Source of the DNA: Flavobacteriaceae bacterium
Lineage (GTDB): Bacteria; Bacteroidota; Bacteroidia; Flavobacteriales; Flavobacteriaceae
Direction of reading: 5' to 3'
Assembly (NCBI GenBank): GCA_013214065.1
Contig: JABSPK010000014.1
Span: forward strand, 1-64,000
DNA length: 64,000 nt
Under the pieces are notes generated by a model. That model was not told where the DNA came from. It searched no databases and saw only the letters and a list, made by a program, of their open reading frames with translations. The stretch's first letter is position 1, and each line of letters starts with the position of its first letter. Below, one piece after another: positions 56,866-64,000 of the stretch. Position numbers and translations under genes: made by a program.

Positions 56866-58986
56866 ATGATGTATTTCTTACGCCTTTGTGCCCTGGTACT
56901 CACCTTGATAATACCGTACTACGGCTATGGCTGTTCGATTTTCATCAGCTCGAAACAGGGTCGGGTATTGGTGGGGGCTAATGAAGATTCGCTGACATCG
57001 TTTCGCAACCTTTGGTTCGTTCCGGCCAAGGAAGGACGGTATGGGGCGGTGTTTTTCGGCCAGAACGACATGCAGACCCAGGCCGGCATGAACGAACACG
57101 GCTTGTTTTTTGATTTTGCAGCGATTCCGCGCATCAGCCCAAAATCCACTCAAATCAACTTCATTCCCATTGCCGAAATCCTGGCCACTTGTAAAACCGT
57201 TGAAGAGGCTTTGAATCTGTATCAAAAATACACCTATGCTTCCTACGGCTCGCAAATGCTCTTGGCCGACGCGACGGGGAATTCCGTTCTGATCAATGCC
57301 GACACCATCGTGCGAAAGACCGGCGATTACCAAATCACGACGAACTTCAACATCTGCGAGCTGGAGACCGAAACCTACGATTGCCTACGCTATGATAAAA
57401 TCGATAGGGCCCTAAGCAGCTCCGAGACGATTTTCGTGCCGTTTTTCCAGGATATTCTTCGTGATGTGCACCAAGAAGGACGGATAGCGACCCAAAATTC
57501 CAGCGTTTTCGACCTCAAGGCACGTAAAATACATATGAATTGGTTTCATGATTATTCCGAAACGGTGGTCATCGATCTGCAAGAGGAATTGAAAAAGGGC
57601 TTCCGGATCGAGCCTTTGGGTAATCGTTTCCAACAAAAGAATTTCGCTTCGATCCAATTTCGGGAATCCGAGGAAGGCTATTTTTACCATACCCTGCTCC
57701 ATACCTTCGAACATGATGGCCTAACTGCCGGAGCCACCTTTTACCAAGGCTATGTGAACACCCATCCCGACACATCGGAATCCGCAAAAATTGATCTGAA
57801 CTGGATCCCCTATGGTTTAATCGCAAAAGCACGGGTCGCCTACGACAACCTGTCCTTCGATTATTACTATATCCCTTCCTTGCAGACCTACCGACCGATT
57901 TGGGGGTCACGACATCCGTTGTTGTATCAAGCCCTTGACATTCTAGAACTTATCGAGGCCAAACAATGGATCGATGGGGACTTCTTCTTTGAAGAAATCC
58001 ACGGCTATATCCAAATGGTCCTTGGCAACAAAAACCAAGCCGTGGCGCGCTATGAAAAGGCGATTAGCCTTGCCGAAAAAGGGTCCAGAGAACAAAAACG
58101 GGCCACACTGATGTTGGCCTTGATCCGTGAGGCGGATTTCCCCAAAAACAACAATGAACACCTGAAATACCTCAAACAGCGCCCCCCTGGCTTACACCCC
58201 AAAGTATTCGCGCCCGAAATGGTTTCTAAGCGCACGGAATACGAATTCGGCTCCGTATTCAACGCCTCCGGCACGGAATGCTTTTATGGGGTCGATGTCA
58301 ACGGTAAGGAAGAAATCCGGTATACCAAGTTGGAGGGTGACCAATGGACCAGCCCGAAAACCCTGCTCACCCATCCGGTCTTTGGTTACAACGACCCCTT
58401 TCTTTCACCGGACGAAAACCGGCTGTACTTCATTTCGCGAAGGACCAATGACGGGCAAGGGAAGCCTAAGGATTACGACATTTGGTATGTGCAAAAGGAA
58501 GGTGATGCTTGGTCGGAACCCATCAATGCAGGACCACACATCAATACGGGTTCGAACGAGTATTATATTTCCTTCACCAAGAACGGGGATCTCTATTTCT
58601 CATCGAACACCAAGGCGCCGGAAAACCAGCAGGATGATTTTGACATTTATGTTTCCAAAAACAGCAATGACCAGTTCCAAAAGCCCATCCCTTTGGGAAG
58701 CGCCATCAACACCCCTGCCTATGAAGCCGATGTTTTTGTCGACCCGAATGAAACCTTCTTGATATTCTGTGCCCAACGAAAGGAAGGATTCGGCCAAGGG
58801 GACTTGTACATCAGTTTTAAAAAGGCCGACGGCACTTGGTCGGTTGCCAAAAACATGGGGGAAACCATCAACACTTCCGGCCATGAACTCTGCCCCTTTG
58901 TGACTGCTGACGGAAAATACTTGTTCTACACTAGCAACAAAGATATTTATTGGGTCAGTGCCGAAATTTTGGAGCGTTATCGTTGA
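56866..58986 (+). CDS. secreted Cys-Ntn hydrolase fused to a PD40-type beta-propeller
   Basis: A 706-residue protein. Signal peptide about 1-22; the first mature residue is Cys23 (GYGCSIFISSKQGRVLVGANEDS), the Ntn nucleophile, and the rest of the N-terminal half (to about 330) has the MNEHGLFFDFA and TTNFN segments of the choloylglycine hydrolase/acyl-CoA:6-APA acyltransferase-like fold. Residues about 370-440 are a TPR-like helical linker, and residues about 460-700 hold PD40 propeller repeats (FLSPDENRLYFIS, KNGDLYFSSN, VTADGKYLFYTSN). A Cys-Ntn hydrolase joined to a WD40-like propeller is unusual. Third Cys-Ntn gene in the window. AraC regulator directly upstream. Confidence 0.8.
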   Translation: MMYFLRLCALVLTLIIPYYGYGCSIFISSKQGRVLVGANEDSLTSFRNLWFVPAKEGRYGAVFFGQNDMQTQAGMNEHGLFFDFAAIPRISPKSTQINFIPIAEILATCKTVEEALNLYQKYTYASYGSQMLLADATGNSVLINADTIVRKTGDYQITTNFNICELETETYDCLRYDKIDRALSSSETIFVPFFQDILRDVHQEGRIATQNSSVFDLKARKIHMNWFHDYSETVVIDLQEELKKGFRIEPLGNRFQQKNFASIQFRESEEGYFYHTLLHTFEHDGLTAGATFYQGYVNTHPDTSESAKIDLNWIPYGLIAKARVAYDNLSFDYYYIPSLQTYRPIWGSRHPLLYQALDILELIEAKQWIDGDFFFEEIHGYIQMVLGNKNQAVARYEKAISLAEKGSREQKRATLMLALIREADFPKNNNEHLKYLKQRPPGLHPKVFAPEMVSKRTEYEFGSVFNASGTECFYGVDVNGKEEIRYTKLEGDQWTSPKTLLTHPVFGYNDPFLSPDENRLYFISRRTNDGQGKPKDYDIWYVQKEGDAWSEPINAGPHINTGSNEYYISFTKNGDLYFSSNTKAPENQQDDFDIYVSKNSNDQFQKPIPLGSAINTPAYEADVFVDPNETFLIFCAQRKEGFGQGDLYISFKKADGTWSVAKNMGETINTSGHELCPFVTADGKYLFYTSNKDIYWVSAEILERYR

Positions 58987-59144
58987 TTTGATTCAGGGTG
59001 AATTGGAATACTAAGGAATTTTTTTACACCTCCTGAATTCATATACTTACTTCCTGAAAAAAATAACGTAAGCGTTTCCTGTTTCTTAATTTAAGTCAAT
59101 GCTTGGTGAATTCCGCAAGGCTAATTTTGACCTTATTTGGTTCA

Positions 59145-59603
59145 ATGAGCACACTTACCGTAAAAAAAGGGGAAGTTCTTCAAAGACCTGGAGAATTGAA
59201 CTCTAAACTATACCTAGTTGTTTCCGGTCTACTTCGCAGTTATTTTCTAGACCAAAAAGGGAGGGAACATATTTTCCTTTTCGCCGCTGAAGGTTCGGTT
59301 ATGGTGGATCACATCCCGCCCAATCTTCCTTGCGACCTGTTTATTGATGCCTTGGGAGACAGCCAAGTCGTGACTTACGATAAAAATTACTGGAATGCAC
59401 ATAATAACATGATGGAGATGTTACAAAGAATCGACATCCTCCAGAAGCGGGTCATTATGAATATGGGGGAAAGCATCTATGACCGCTATCACTATTTCTT
59501 GCAACTGTATCCGGATATCGTGCCTCGAATTCCCCAAAGAATGATTGCTTCTTACTTAGGGGTTACCCCTGAAGCGCTAAGTAAGGCCAAGCATAGAAAA
59601 TAA
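59145..59603 (+). CDS. short Crp/Fnr-like regulator
   Basis: From ATG 59145, 152 residues; a GTG at 59106 gives 165. Cyclic-nucleotide-binding-like beta roll (TVKKGEVLQRPGELNSKLYLVVSGLLRSYF) and a C-terminal helix-turn-helix remnant ending RIPQRMIASYLGVTPEALSKAKHRK. It is shorter than the ordinary 190-200 at both ends: the N-terminal helix is incomplete with the ATG start, and only a few residues follow the recognition helix. It may be functional from GTG, or may be a slightly decayed copy. First gene of the AT-rich 59-64 kb block. Confidence 0.7.
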   Translation: MSTLTVKKGEVLQRPGELNSKLYLVVSGLLRSYFLDQKGREHIFLFAAEGSVMVDHIPPNLPCDLFIDALGDSQVVTYDKNYWNAHNNMMEMLQRIDILQKRVIMNMGESIYDRYHYFLQLYPDIVPRIPQRMIASYLGVTPEALSKAKHRK

Positions 59604-59734
59604 TTTCACCGCATGTGATTAAAATGTTAAATATTTTAACTCTTAATTTAAATTAATGTACGGGGAAATTGTTGAACCTAAATTCGGTCGGTCGATTAAA
59701 AGAACAAAATCGACGTGAAGGCTAAAAAACCAAC

Positions 59735-61153
59735 ATGAAAAAACTACCAATTACCCTAATACTTGCCTTATTCCTTTTCACTTTTATCATGCATTCACAG
59801 GAAGTGGAACTTAAAGCACCGCCCAGCTTTATGGATGATAGTGCTGATGAAGATTACAGCTATCTAAAGAACAAGGACACGGCGAGCACCTATGATAAAA
59901 TGTTTGCACAATCGCTCAAGTTCATTCCTCTTGGTAAAAGCAAGAAAAGCTATTTGACGCTAGGTGGTCACTATAGGGCGCGTTTTGAGAGCACAATAAA
60001 TGATAACTATACCGATGAAAATGACATCTACTACTCTCAGCGACTGAACTTAAATACCAATTTACATCTTGGAAAACACATACGCGTGTTTGCTGACCTA
60101 TTCCATGGATTTACCAGTGGTGAAGAAGACCGGCTTTTTCAAGATGATGATATCGCTTTTCATCAGGCTTATGTTGAATTTACGGTACCTAATCAGGACA
60201 CTGATTTTACATTTACATTCGGTCGAAAACAGCTGGAATTTGGGGCTGGTCGATTGGTCGCCCGCAGAAATGGTACCAATATGCGTAGGAGCTTCGATTT
60301 GTTGAAGCTCGACTATAATTTCAACCAAAACAAGATTGAAACGTTCTACGGAAAGGAAGTACAGTCTGAATTTGGTGCCTTTGACAACGATTATACCTTG
60401 TTCGACAGTAATGCAAGCAACAACCCTAAACTATGGGGTATCAATGCCGATTTCAATGTAAAAGGGATAATAGGTAAAACACAATTCTACTATTTAGGGT
60501 TTCGCTCTGATTTTGCCAGCTTTAGCGATCTCAGCGGAGAAGAAACACGCCATTCCGTTGGATTTCGTCGCCACGGAAAGATTGGCAAACGTATGGTATT
60601 CAACACTGAGTTGGTATATCAATTCGGCAAACTGGGCGAGGCAAATATCAGCGCTTTCAATATAGAGCTCGACTATAAGTATACTTTGATCAATACGCCG
60701 TGGACCCCAAGGTTAGGTATTAAATTCGACTATTCCTCCGGAGATCGTAATAGCGGTGATGACAAGTTGCAGACCTACAATCCACTATTTGTAAATCCTG
60801 GACTCTACAGTTTGGCAGCGGTAAATACACCCATAAACCTGAATGGTTTGCATCCAAATCTAAAGATATGGCCATTCGAAGGGTTCTCGATCTATATGGA
60901 TTACGCCTTCTTTTTCCGGTCTTCAAAAGAAGATGCATTGTATACCCCGGCACGCTTTATCCTGCGGGATGCCACAAGGGGAACGAGTGCCTATTTAGGA
61001 AGTGCCTTTGGCATGAAAATTTTATATGAAATCAATAGGAACATCGAATTTGAATGGCGCACCACCTACTTTATTGCCGGTGATTTCGTGAAGGAATCCG
61101 GTGAATCGAACAATATATTTTTTACAGGGCCGACCTTGGAATTCAAATTTTAA
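59735..61153 (+). CDS. alginate-export family outer-membrane porin
   Basis: A 472-residue beta-barrel. Signal peptide about 1-21. The body matches the alginate-export domain (PF13372): YLTLGGHYRARFE near the start, FTFGRKQLEFGAGRLVARRNGTNMRRSFDLLKL in the middle, and a C-terminal strand ending in GPTLEFKF (aromatic ending for outer-membrane insertion). In Pseudomonas AlgE exports alginate; flavobacterial homologues are mostly uncharacterised and may let anionic or other substrates in or out. Starts 131 bp after the Crp-like gene. Confidence 0.8.
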   Translation: MKKLPITLILALFLFTFIMHSQEVELKAPPSFMDDSADEDYSYLKNKDTASTYDKMFAQSLKFIPLGKSKKSYLTLGGHYRARFESTINDNYTDENDIYYSQRLNLNTNLHLGKHIRVFADLFHGFTSGEEDRLFQDDDIAFHQAYVEFTVPNQDTDFTFTFGRKQLEFGAGRLVARRNGTNMRRSFDLLKLDYNFNQNKIETFYGKEVQSEFGAFDNDYTLFDSNASNNPKLWGINADFNVKGIIGKTQFYYLGFRSDFASFSDLSGEETRHSVGFRRHGKIGKRMVFNTELVYQFGKLGEANISAFNIELDYKYTLINTPWTPRLGIKFDYSSGDRNSGDDKLQTYNPLFVNPGLYSLAAVNTPINLNGLHPNLKIWPFEGFSIYMDYAFFFRSSKEDALYTPARFILRDATRGTSAYLGSAFGMKILYEINRNIEFEWRTTYFIAGDFVKESGESNNIFFTGPTLEFKF

Positions 61154-61264
61154 GCAGGTTGGATTTTAATCCTGTAAGGCATAAAAATTAAAAACCAATA
61201 AATAACAAAAAACAAAAATAATGAAACCAATTTCCAGAACCTCTTATTTCCAAAACCTAGTAAG

Positions 61265-63166
61265 ATGAAAAAAAGCGTCAAAATAGTTGCGGCAATTTTA
61301 ATATTAGTGTTGATCAGCGAAAATGCCAAAGCACAAGAACAAGTTTCAATTCCAGAAAAAGACAAGGCCTTATCCTACTACGATCGGGATAAAATAGACG
61401 TCAGTAACCTGCGACATTTTTATGATGGCATGCTCATGGCGGATGTAATGATCCATGCGGATGCGATGTTCGATGCTGAATCGAAATGGAAGATGACCCT
61501 TTATCAAATGATTCGATTGGGAAGCAATCATTATCAGCTTAGAAGTGCCTACCAATTGTACCTTATGGGAACCCCCATGAATGAGGTATTGGGCATATGG
61601 TCGCCCGATCATATTGAATCGATCAAAGACAAGCGCCTACAGGCCGCATTCCAATACATAAAGCAAATTACCTCCTATCCCTCTGAAGTAAACGGCGACA
61701 CCCATGGGTTACTTCGCACCCATTTTATTGATCGTCAGATTGCAGAATTAATGGAGCTTGCCGCAATCAATGCTGAAAATGCACTCCACGACAACCTGTT
61801 ACCCATACCTACGGATCAGAAAATGCTTGATTGGGGAATGAAGAACTTGAAGATGGTCGGTTGGAAACCCAAACATAACAAAAGCAACAGTACCAACGAA
61901 CAACGAGCCAATGCCTTTGTTGGTGATCTTCTAAAACAAGCATATACCGATGTCATCGCTAACTGGCATCCGGAAGATTTGACAGCAGCAGCACCGGAAT
62001 TTCAAAAGGATTTCGTGAATCTAGTGACCGGTTATGATGTTAGTCCTTCTTTAGAAGATGCGGATGGCGATGGTGTTGAAGATCCGTTTGATGCCGCCCC
62101 GAATGACCCAAAAAGTTGGAAGGCGCCGAATCAGGACAAAAACAAAACGTCAAAGGGATCCACATCAAAATTCAATAGTGCTGCCTACGATTTCCAATAC
62201 TACAAAAGACCTACGGCCCAGAAAAGCGAGTATCCCTATAGCGATAGAAACAAGTTCGATACGGAGTGGACACGTCAGAGTTCCGTCGGGACCGCAAAAA
62301 TGGAAGATTATTTCTCCGGTATTGATCGCGCTACTTCAATGAAGTTCAGATGGCAGTTCTTTTTTATATATCAGCTTTCCGCCGGCTGTGTGCATTGTAA
62401 AGTGCATGGGTCTTATGGAATCTATTTAAAAACCCAGGAGAACTTTCCAAATGGTAAAATCACCGAAGATGAAATGCCCGATGTAATGAAAGGAATCTAT
62501 GCATTGTTCGATTTCGAACGGTCCGATATGTTCACGGAAGCTGAGAAATCGGCATTCCGCTTTGCTAGGGATGCGGCGGTCATACCGAATCGAACGACTG
62601 CGGCACATATAGAAGACCTGCGCCGGTATTATAGCGACAGGGAAATCCAGGAAATTATCATGACGCTATTGGCAGGGGCGCGACTGTCAACGGGAATGCT
62701 ATCCCAGATAACGGTTACGGATCGCTTGTCAATGACGTTCGCACTCAGGCATTTAACCCCAAACGGTTGGAATCCCGGACAGCATATCGGGTGGCCAAAT
62801 GAACAACGACGTTACTACATGTCTGAAGCAGGGCAAGCCGCTGCCGACTTTATGCAACAAGGTAAAGTTTTTGATTCGGCTTCCGAATGGCTTGACACCC
62901 ATGTACCATTGGCCGTCGACACCGATGGCGATGGAGTAGACGACGAATTTGATGGTTTCCCTAACAATCCTGAAAAATGGGCAGACACGGACAAAGATGG
63001 TCTGGAAGACAATCTTGATGACGACATTGATGGGGATGGCTTATCGAATGAAGAAGAGTTGATTGCCCGGACTTTTCCATATAAAGCCGATTCTGACGGT
63101 GACGGAGTAGATGATGCCACCGAAATAAAGAACGGTACCGATCCTATCGACCCACATCATTTTTAG
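61265..63166 (+). CDS. secreted protein with two CMD/AhpD-like halves and thrombospondin type 3 repeats
   Basis: A 633-residue secreted protein (signal peptide about 1-23). Residues about 40-250 and 350-540 look like two diverged carboxymuconolactone decarboxylase (CMD/AhpD-like) helical domains. The second has the redox motif CVHCKVHG (Cys375, Cys378, His381) and YYSDREIQEIIMTLLAGA, both typical of the fold; the first keeps helical segments such as IDRQIAELMELAAINAEN but lacks the CxxC. Each half is followed by calcium-binding TSP3 repeats (DADGDGVEDPFDAAPNDP at about 265; DTDGDGVDDEFDGFPNNP and three more at 552-633). Exported AhpD-like proteins with such repeats are rarely described. Intact. 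Confidence 0.75.
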   Translation: MKKSVKIVAAILILVLISENAKAQEQVSIPEKDKALSYYDRDKIDVSNLRHFYDGMLMADVMIHADAMFDAESKWKMTLYQMIRLGSNHYQLRSAYQLYLMGTPMNEVLGIWSPDHIESIKDKRLQAAFQYIKQITSYPSEVNGDTHGLLRTHFIDRQIAELMELAAINAENALHDNLLPIPTDQKMLDWGMKNLKMVGWKPKHNKSNSTNEQRANAFVGDLLKQAYTDVIANWHPEDLTAAAPEFQKDFVNLVTGYDVSPSLEDADGDGVEDPFDAAPNDPKSWKAPNQDKNKTSKGSTSKFNSAAYDFQYYKRPTAQKSEYPYSDRNKFDTEWTRQSSVGTAKMEDYFSGIDRATSMKFRWQFFFIYQLSAGCVHCKVHGSYGIYLKTQENFPNGKITEDEMPDVMKGIYALFDFERSDMFTEAEKSAFRFARDAAVIPNRTTAAHIEDLRRYYSDREIQEIIMTLLAGARLSTGMLSQITVTDRLSMTFALRHLTPNGWNPGQHIGWPNEQRRYYMSEAGQAAADFMQQGKVFDSASEWLDTHVPLAVDTDGDGVDDEFDGFPNNPEKWADTDKDGLEDNLDDDIDGDGLSNEEELIARTFPYKADSDGDGVDDATEIKNGTDPIDPHHF

Positions 63167-63224
63167 TTAATCCGCAAAGATTCCAAAAACAGCAATCAAC
63201 TTATTAACATTTAATCATAATACT

Positions 63225-64000
63225 ATGAAATTTCAATGCACAGTTTTTCTTGCTTTATTTCTTTTGACCATCGCATGCAGCGAATCTACAGCCGATGGGT
63301 CTTCAGAACAAACTTTGAACGCCAAGGTTTCGACCGAGATTCCGATTTGGGCGAAATTAGATGGAGCGAACGTACTAGCCTTTGGTCCTGATAACGTCCT
63401 CTTTATTGGCGACAGTAAAGGAGCACGGATATATGCAGTTACAACGGAGGCGACCGAACTAAAGGATGCCATACCCTACAATCTCGAAGGATTCGATCTT
63501 CTTGCAGGGGAAAAACTTGGTCTTTCACCAAGGGATGTGATCATCAACGACATGAAAATACATCCTATGAGCCAAGAAGCCTACGTGTCCATAAAATTAG
63601 GGCACGAACCAAGTGCTAAATCCGTCATAGCAATCGTAAACCCAACAACCTCCGAAATTCGATTATTGAAAATCGGCAAAGCCAACACGATCCAAGTTTC
63701 AATTGACAATCCCGCTTCACCTGATTTAGTGTTTTGGGAAGAAACCCCGGCTTCAACACTGAGTATAACTGACATCGATTATCATGATGGACATATTTAT
63801 GTTGCTGGTTTGACCAATAGTGAATTCGCTTCGACACTTCGAAAGATCGAGTACCCATTCGATAATGTACAGGAATCCGTAAATAGCATAGAAATGTACC
63901 ATGCGGTACATACGCAAAACGAAACAAGGGCACCTATTCGAACGATGCTTTTTGATAAAATCAACGGCGAATCCACCTTGTTGGCAAGTTATACCTGTAC
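63225..64000 (+). CDS. secreted beta-propeller-like lipoprotein, partial (3' end outside the window)
   Basis: Begins MKFQCTVFLALFLLTIACS with a lipobox (TIAC, Cys18), and continues as a beta-rich protein with repeated blocks of the form VLAFGPDNVLFIGDSKGARIYAV and DIDYHDGHIYVAGLTN, typical of six/seven-bladed propellers. It runs off the window after about 258 residues. It is 58 bp after the TSP3/CMD gene and probably in the same operon. No enzyme motif seen in the visible part. Confidence 0.75.
   Translation, partial: MKFQCTVFLALFLLTIACSESTADGSSEQTLNAKVSTEIPIWAKLDGANVLAFGPDNVLFIGDSKGARIYAVTTEATELKDAIPYNLEGFDLLAGEKLGLSPRDVIINDMKIHPMSQEAYVSIKLGHEPSAKSVIAIVNPTTSEIRLLKIGKANTIQVSIDNPASPDLVFWEETPASTLSITDIDYHDGHIYVAGLTNSEFASTLRKIEYPFDNVQESVNSIEMYHAVHTQNETRAPIRTMLFDKINGESTLLASYTC

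Follow-up and report, generated by a model that had tools for sequence, protein, structure and literature searches.

The 64,000-nucleotide window analysed here, which comprises bases 1 to 64000 of the 87477-base contig C6 of a Flavobacteriaceae bacterium, ends in a run of + strand genes (in locus L009 in what follows) that starts at 59145 and continues beyond the window end. In order, these genes encode a Crp-like regulator, an Alginate_exp porin, a 633-residue protein, a 'propeller' lipoprotein, an immunoglobulin-like (Ig-like) lipoprotein, a DoxX_2 protein, an FMN_red protein, a PycTM protein, and a 1221-residue protein. We find that the constant unit of this cluster is the pair of 'propeller' and Ig-like genes and not the gene for the 633-residue protein, which is, as judged from profile comparisons, a tandem of two CMD/AhpD-like halves. 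We propose, with a probability of about one in three, that the cluster may be the part of a stress response that acts in the cell envelope against oxidants or thiol-reactive electrophiles (hypohalous acids, quinones, or halogenated small molecules). This detoxification reading draws on the chemistry of relatives of the 633-residue protein (Bmp8, RclX, and a neighbour of chlorite dismutase), on its tandem architecture with one intact site, on its gene linkage, and on the gene context of the 'propeller' subfamily. The relevant features are as follows, in window positions except for the last.

59145..59603, + strand: Crp/FNR-type regulator, 152 residues from the ATG at 59145 (166 residues if from the TTG at 59103); cNMP_binding above cut-off.
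59735..61153, + strand: outer-membrane porin of the Alginate_exp family, 472 residues; PF13372, E 1.3e-51.
61265..63166, + strand: tandem CMD/AhpD-like protein with TSP3-like motifs, 633 residues; predicted to be exported from a signal-peptide-like N terminus recognized by eye.
61337..62050, + strand: half A, approximately residues 25 to 262; CMD-like by alignment, with S87, Y90, and R93 replacing C, C, and H.
62057..62083, + strand: first TSP3-like motif (pattern), residues 265 to 273, between halves A and B.
62165..62899, + strand: half B, approximately residues 301 to 545; CMD-like by its Bmp8 match and HHalign, with C375-x-x-C378-x-x-H381.
62918..63163, + strand: C-terminal TSP3-like stretch with motifs at residues 552, 574, 587, and 609 (pattern); PF18884 below cut-off.
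63225..64000, + strand: unnamed 'propeller' lipoprotein, 436 residues, ending at contig position 64535 and followed by its Ig-like partner.
Contig 64560-65357, beyond the window, + strand: Ig-like lipoprotein gene, partner of 'propeller'.

An earlier note on this DNA, made from the sequence alone, had described the 633-residue protein as a tandem AhpD-like protein, and our comparisons bear this out. Half A and half B align by BLASTP at 22% identity (E 9e-9, with a one-sequence database, composition correction off, and an aligned stretch that includes a TSP3-like motif) and at 96.4% / 1.1e-9 by HHalign. Against a profile of 16 cytosolic CMD-like proteins, half A scored 84.5% / 6.9e-6 and half B 98.6% / 7.2e-16; ten column-shuffled half A controls reached at most 0.9% against the same set. 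The set covers 16 of the 29 CMD loci found in the window's family outside the window; loci with internal stops are not part of it, nor is L027, although it has no such stops. At the level of family models, the CMD families of Pfam gave no match to the 633-residue protein at E≤1, and NCBIfam matches were weak (YciW-related, E 1.1e-6, 28.5 versus 310 bits; peroxid_rel, E 0.0014, 18.5 versus 81.8 bits). The only Pfam family found was TSP3_bac (PF18884), for which the score of 23.5 bits lies below the cut-off (25). The thrombospondin type 3 (TSP3) repeats named in the earlier note are present as five DxDxDGxxD-like motifs identified by pattern (residues 265, 552, 574, 587, and 609) but fall short as a Pfam domain. 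A predicted model of the protein is helical in both halves, with a mean pLDDT of 36.5 from an alignment of 3 sequences, which is too poor for a fold.

The redox CxxC site that had also been claimed is found in one half only. Both cysteines, C375 and C378, lie in half B within the motif C375-V-H-C378-K-V-H381, while the motif is lost in half A. The spacing in half B is the same as that in Bmp8 (AGCMYCKSH) and in cytosolic CMD-like proteins (GCRYCxAH). In all three known members of the 633-residue family (the window protein and those at loci L103 and L104), half A has lost the active-site cysteines, and CVHCxVHG is kept in half B of both members that reach that far (window and L103). Using phmmer with half B against the PDB, the only significant solved relative was Bmp8, with two entries (6ohi, E 5.8e-9, and 6e-8).

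Bmp8 (PDB 6ohi), a tetrabromopyrrole debrominase, thus shares with half B the CMD/AhpD-like domain and the C-x-x-C-x-x-H motif; however, it is a 195-residue chain of a brominated-pyrrole pathway, whereas the 633-residue protein contains two such domains, one of them degenerate, along with TSP3-like motifs and an N terminus resembling a signal peptide. No bmp-type families of a halogenated-pyrrole cluster were present among the neighbours scanned. The strategy of Bmp8 resembles that of thyroid deiodinase, a likeness for which we found no confirmation in the literature, and RclX of Pseudomonas aeruginosa is the same protein as RcsA. In the excerpts of the sources used here, Bmp8 removes bromine, with oxidation of its cysteines to a disulfide being proposed (PMC5577590); PMC7918430 speaks of it once as dehalogenating and elsewhere as a decarboxylating step. 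RclX, an AhpD-like CxxC protein encoded beside its own regulator gene, is required for defence against HOCl and HOSCN, according to part of the text of PMC7950407. It differs from the window protein in having RclR as regulator, and that part of the text mentions neither a 'propeller'/Ig pair nor TSP3 motifs; the two proteins are likened by description, not by sequence. In the excerpt of PMC9751292, the gene neighbourhoods of chlorite dismutase have an associated AhpD-like protein.

The 633-residue protein is rare. In the window's family, none of 148 other genomes had more than a TSP3 match (E≤1e-10), and phylum-wide, the matches in 7 of 394 other genomes (E≤1e-6) all fell inside residues 545 to 631, i.e., the TSP3 stretch. 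Half B alone matched 47 of 396 other family genomes at E≤1e-5 with 22-31% identity, and these represent ordinary CMD-like proteins. There was no match among 197 other genomes of the family of genome G773 at E≤1e-12, and plasmids yielded two weak matches (26-28%). A pattern scan of the species-wide collection, which reaches close relatives only, returned 14 matches, of which 2 are relatives (L103 and L104); no relative of the 633-residue protein or of 'propeller' turned up in viral contigs when these were scanned by pattern. L103 is a 5.4-kb contig of a Rhodobacteraceae metagenome-assembled genome (MAG) with a 52% identical homologue; here, a 'propeller' open reading frame (ORF) begins 225 nucleotides (nt) away on the opposite strand, and a LysR gene is also present. 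L104 is a 7.0-kb contig of a Flammeovirgaceae MAG, and its homologue, 61% identical in the best segment, is cut off by the contig end. Upstream of it lie a SnoaL-like gene and, at L104:4429-5267, two consecutive Crp-like frames; the product of the first is 52% identical to the window's regulator, and the second is shorter and possibly broken. Among the three family members, linkage to 'propeller' and linkage to a Crp-like gene are thus each found in two. We found no paper joining CMD with thrombospondin type 3.

We considered the CMD protein as the constant centre of the cluster and rejected this idea, since L080 and L081 run porin-'propeller'-Ig with no CMD gene on those stretches. A comparison of neighbourhoods, as the earlier note had proposed, did not go against its reading: the same 'propeller' family recurs by L103 and the same Crp family by L104. 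The porin is not constant.

The 'propeller' and Ig-like genes do form a constant pair. An Ig-like gene lies ≤400 nt downstream on the same strand for 39 of 46 'propeller' genes at 44 loci. The seven exceptions are two genes at contig ends (L126 and L133), L099 with a porin gene in between, L100 and both L102 genes with the Ig-like gene upstream, and L103 with none. Some loci are not independent, being kin or from one genome (L051/L054, L103/L124/L133, L081/L082, and L089/L102). 'Propeller' homologues were detected at E≤1e-10 in 21 of 248 other genomes of the family, 6 of 246 other genomes of the phylum, and 11 plasmid records, and at E≤1e-20 in 9 of 244 genomes in the order of G773. Invariant residues over 28 sequences include D63, H226, H229, E233, Y256, and C258. 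The protein has no Pfam (E≤1), NCBIfam, or significant PDB match, including by profile search; for the relative in L080, the best Pfam match was SBBP at E 0.089. A model built from 2 sequences (the L103 protein and the window part) contains mostly strands at a pLDDT of 34.2, too poor for a fold. The name 'propeller' is the earlier reader's label, which we could not confirm.

Pairs on Vibrio plasmids, annotated as hypothetical and Ig-like, have a 'propeller' at 39-40% identity directly followed by an Ig-like gene at 38-39%. They differ from the window in being accompanied by genes for LysR, pirin, and an NAD(P)H-dependent oxidoreductase, and no porin or half B match was found on the stretch. 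On a Mesorhizobium ciceri plasmid (L053:8989-17987), two 'propeller'/Ig pairs are separated by approximately 5 kb, an interval that contains GST, SDR, LysR, and peroxiredoxin-like genes. We note that on the window's own contig, the otherwise open Ig-like gene contains a single in-frame TGA near its start (contig 64653-64655; L009:5654-5656) where aligned relatives have no stop; this represents either decay or a sequencing error.

In a FastTree phylogeny, the window 'propeller' groups with those of L080 and L081 (support 1.0) within a subfamily of 10 members that includes Vibrio, Leisingera, and the order of the Rhodobacteraceae MAG (support 0.99). The other large subfamily has 25 genes at 24 loci, all from the window's phylum (support 0.8), and a third group of 11 is weakly supported (0.61). 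Context counts for the window subfamily use 9 loci, the near copy L054 being dropped; L104, where there is no 'propeller', was also left out, as was the match to nitroreductase at L082, which is the L081 gene on overlapping stretches of one contig. For the GC-rich loci L052 and L125, ORF picking took antisense frames in places, and annotated or codon-checked genes were used instead. A window-like FMN_red gene is present at 4 of the 9 loci (L009, L051, L125, and L126), and 8 of them have one or more genes for FMN_red, LysR, pirin, GST, and nitroreductase nearby, the exception being L080. Searches with FMN_red, LysR, pirin, and GST as queries matched nothing at the other large subfamily's 24 loci (4/9 versus 0/24 for FMN_red; Fisher p 0.003, post hoc and uncorrected for kinship and locus length). 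Pfam searches of 61 neighbours at the 9 loci gave LysR 6 times, FMN_red 4 times, Alginate_exp 3 times, and Pirin twice among the 25 of 69 families listed; each had fewer than 3 hits in 135 neighbours at 15 of the 24 loci, among the 25 of 157 families listed. In the third group, matches to LysR, GST, pirin, or hemerythrin occur at some loci, and a different FMN_red is present in L099 and L137. Among the 4 of 11 plasmid matches inspected, pirin, NAD(P)H-dependent oxidoreductase, GST, and hemerythrin are annotated beside the Vibrio, Leisingera, and Mesorhizobium members. TMEM175-type genes occur in L080 and L081 and downstream on the window's contig. Together with the Ig-like, DoxX_2, and FMN_red genes beyond the window, these neighbours of relatives back the redox theme of the earlier note.

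The alginate-export porin call in that note is also well founded, with PF13372 matching at 176.1 bits (cut-off 25.2). Homologues that are 45-47% identical adjoin 'propeller' in L080, L081, and L099, so that with L009 a porin adjoins the pair at 4 of 44 'propeller' loci; a Crp-type gene accompanies the pair in L081 and L099. Although the window porin carries PF13372 like other Alginate_exp porins, no alginate polymerase or secretion genes were found among the adjoining genes scanned.

The Crp-like protein scored 28.9 bits for cNMP_binding (cut-off 27.5) and weakly for HTH_Crp_2 (14.2 bits; cut-off 27). Its presence agrees with the earlier note, but we moved its start from 59103: the ATG at 59145 is more likely than the TTG at 59103 to be the start codon, because the L104 homologue aligns from there, as judged by eye, and because a promoter-like site covers the TTG.

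59103..59129, + strand: promoter-like site (TTG...TAnnTTTG, pattern match), 15 nt upstream of the likely Crp ATG.

We take this motif to be of the Bacteroidota type; the pattern has 15 sites on both strands of 78 kb and is therefore weak evidence. The gaps from the Crp-like gene to the gene for the 1221-residue protein are 131, 111, 58, ~25, 14, 9, 45, and 2 nt. Because the gaps are short from the CMD gene onward, the genes from there on may be transcribed as a single transcript. The four ORFs reported earlier lie at the positions given for them, and the suspected continuation to the right was found (Ig-like, DoxX_2, FMN_red, and PycTM genes beyond 64000). The cluster was also said to be AT-rich; its GC content is indeed below that of the whole window, but only mildly so (42.3% versus 46.6%, with 4.9-kb blocks ranging over 40-52%). 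The statement that only exported proteins follow the regulator in the window is upheld insofar as these proteins have N termini that look like export signals by eye. To the left, window 56866-58986 encodes a protein whose N-terminal domain is AAT/C45 acyltransferase-like and whose C-terminal PD40 repeats resemble PorE/OmpA-type proteins.

Farther along the contig, the PycTM (Pycsar effector) gene lies 2 nt ahead of that for the 1221-residue protein, the two together spanning L009:7345-11588 (contig 66344-70587). The 1221-residue protein has no Pfam match and an end that resembles Omp85 barrels below the cut-off. A TMEM175-type gene and a luciferase-like monooxygenase gene are located downstream, as is the following gene.

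Contig 72390-73541 (L009:13391-14542): beta-agarase-like protein; PDB sequence match at E 2.3e-9, with no significant Pfam or NCBIfam match.

This gene lies approximately 8 kb after 'propeller', with at least four genes between it and the FMN_red gene; the 453-residue protein encoded after it has no PDB or NCBIfam match.

If the proposed detoxification function is correct, the Crp-type regulator would sense the stress and the compound would enter via the porin. Outside the cytoplasm, the cysteine pair of half B would reduce it, or remove its halogen, and form a disulfide, with half A acting as a structural or substrate-binding copy. The 'propeller', with H226, H229, E233, Y256, and C258, and its Ig-like partner would hold or process the same class of compounds, and the flavin reductase (NADPH-dependent FMN reductase) would handle what gets inside. 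A broader and more tentative version is that the pair itself may be an undescribed extracytoplasmic redox-detoxification system, present in at least two bacterial phyla, in which the invariant His, His, Glu, and Cys would form an enzymatic site. In a few of its members, this system would have taken on a secreted thiol enzyme of Bmp8/AhpD-like type, degenerate in one half, by which toxic compounds would be reduced or dehalogenated at the surface of the cell. We found no paper treating four or more of pirin, DoxX, quinone oxidoreductase, LysR, and electrophiles together.

Several observations weigh against detoxification. The porin is not a constant partner of the CMD protein, because it has no match in the L103 MAG and only a 30% match, on a different contig, in the L104 MAG. 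Both MAG contigs are short and may be wrongly binned, that of L103 lacks an Ig-like gene, and the Ig-like gene of the window's contig carries the in-frame TGA. The detoxification families are common and vary between loci: no window-like FMN_red is present in L052, L080, L081, L103 (just 5.4 kb), and L124, and SDR matches also occur at 4 of 24 loci of the other large subfamily, with a MarR match in L135. Finally, the agarase-like gene fits a polysaccharide setting; it slightly lowered our confidence in detoxification, in its broader version, and in dehalogenation and slightly raised that in a catabolic function.

According to this catabolic alternative, which we regard as doubtful although worth serious weight, the regulator and porin would serve to import a nutrient (a small compound, aromatic or halogenated, or the sugars of an algal polysaccharide) on which the CMD protein and the pair would act outside the cytoplasm, with the downstream genes continuing its breakdown. 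The porin beside the pair at 4 of 44 loci is consistent with this, as are the amidohydrolase genes of L080 and L081, the genes for CoA transferase and acyl-CoA dehydrogenase at L052, and the luciferase-like monooxygenase and agarase-like genes on the window's contig. However, no ring-cleavage, dioxygenase, or further polysaccharide family was found among the scanned neighbours (25 of 69 families being listed in one tally), the agarase-like gene is separated from FMN_red by the intervening genes, and LysR, MarR, Crp, pirin, nitroreductase, and CDGSH suit detoxification at least equally. The aromatic/uronate-processing idea of the earlier note meets the same evidence: adjoining genes give no support for uronate, and the agarase-like gene is some distance away.

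A narrower form of the detoxification proposal, in which half B would strip halogen from organohalogens or from HOBr/HOCl at the surface by Bmp8 chemistry, as an extracellular reductive dehalogenase or hypohalite scavenger, seems unlikely. Bmp8 is the only significant solved relative of half B, with identical motif spacing, and the excerpt of PMC5577590 proposes cysteine oxidation for it; yet the cytosolic CMD-like proteins of the window's family share this spacing, which argues that the motif is not specific for debromination, and no bmp-type halogenase was found among the neighbours scanned. Less probable still is a structural or adhesive surface set, in which the CMD halves would no longer be enzymes and binding would fall to the TSP3-like motifs and the Ig-like domains. 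The loss of active-site cysteines from half A in all three members fits this idea, as do weak matches of the TSP3 stretch to the cohesion proteins MtsC and MtsD (NCBIfam, far below cut-offs), but the CVHCxVHG retained in half B of the window and L103 proteins speaks against it, and the invariant H, H, E, and C in 28 'propeller' sequences suggest a chemical site.

If the detoxification proposal is correct, the thiol chemistry of CMD/AhpD proteins would not be confined to the cytoplasm but would also operate beyond it, in a protein that is doubled and half degenerate. An unnamed exported pair found in two phyla would then have a role that can be tested, the first proposed for it, in resisting oxidants, quinones, or organohalogens.

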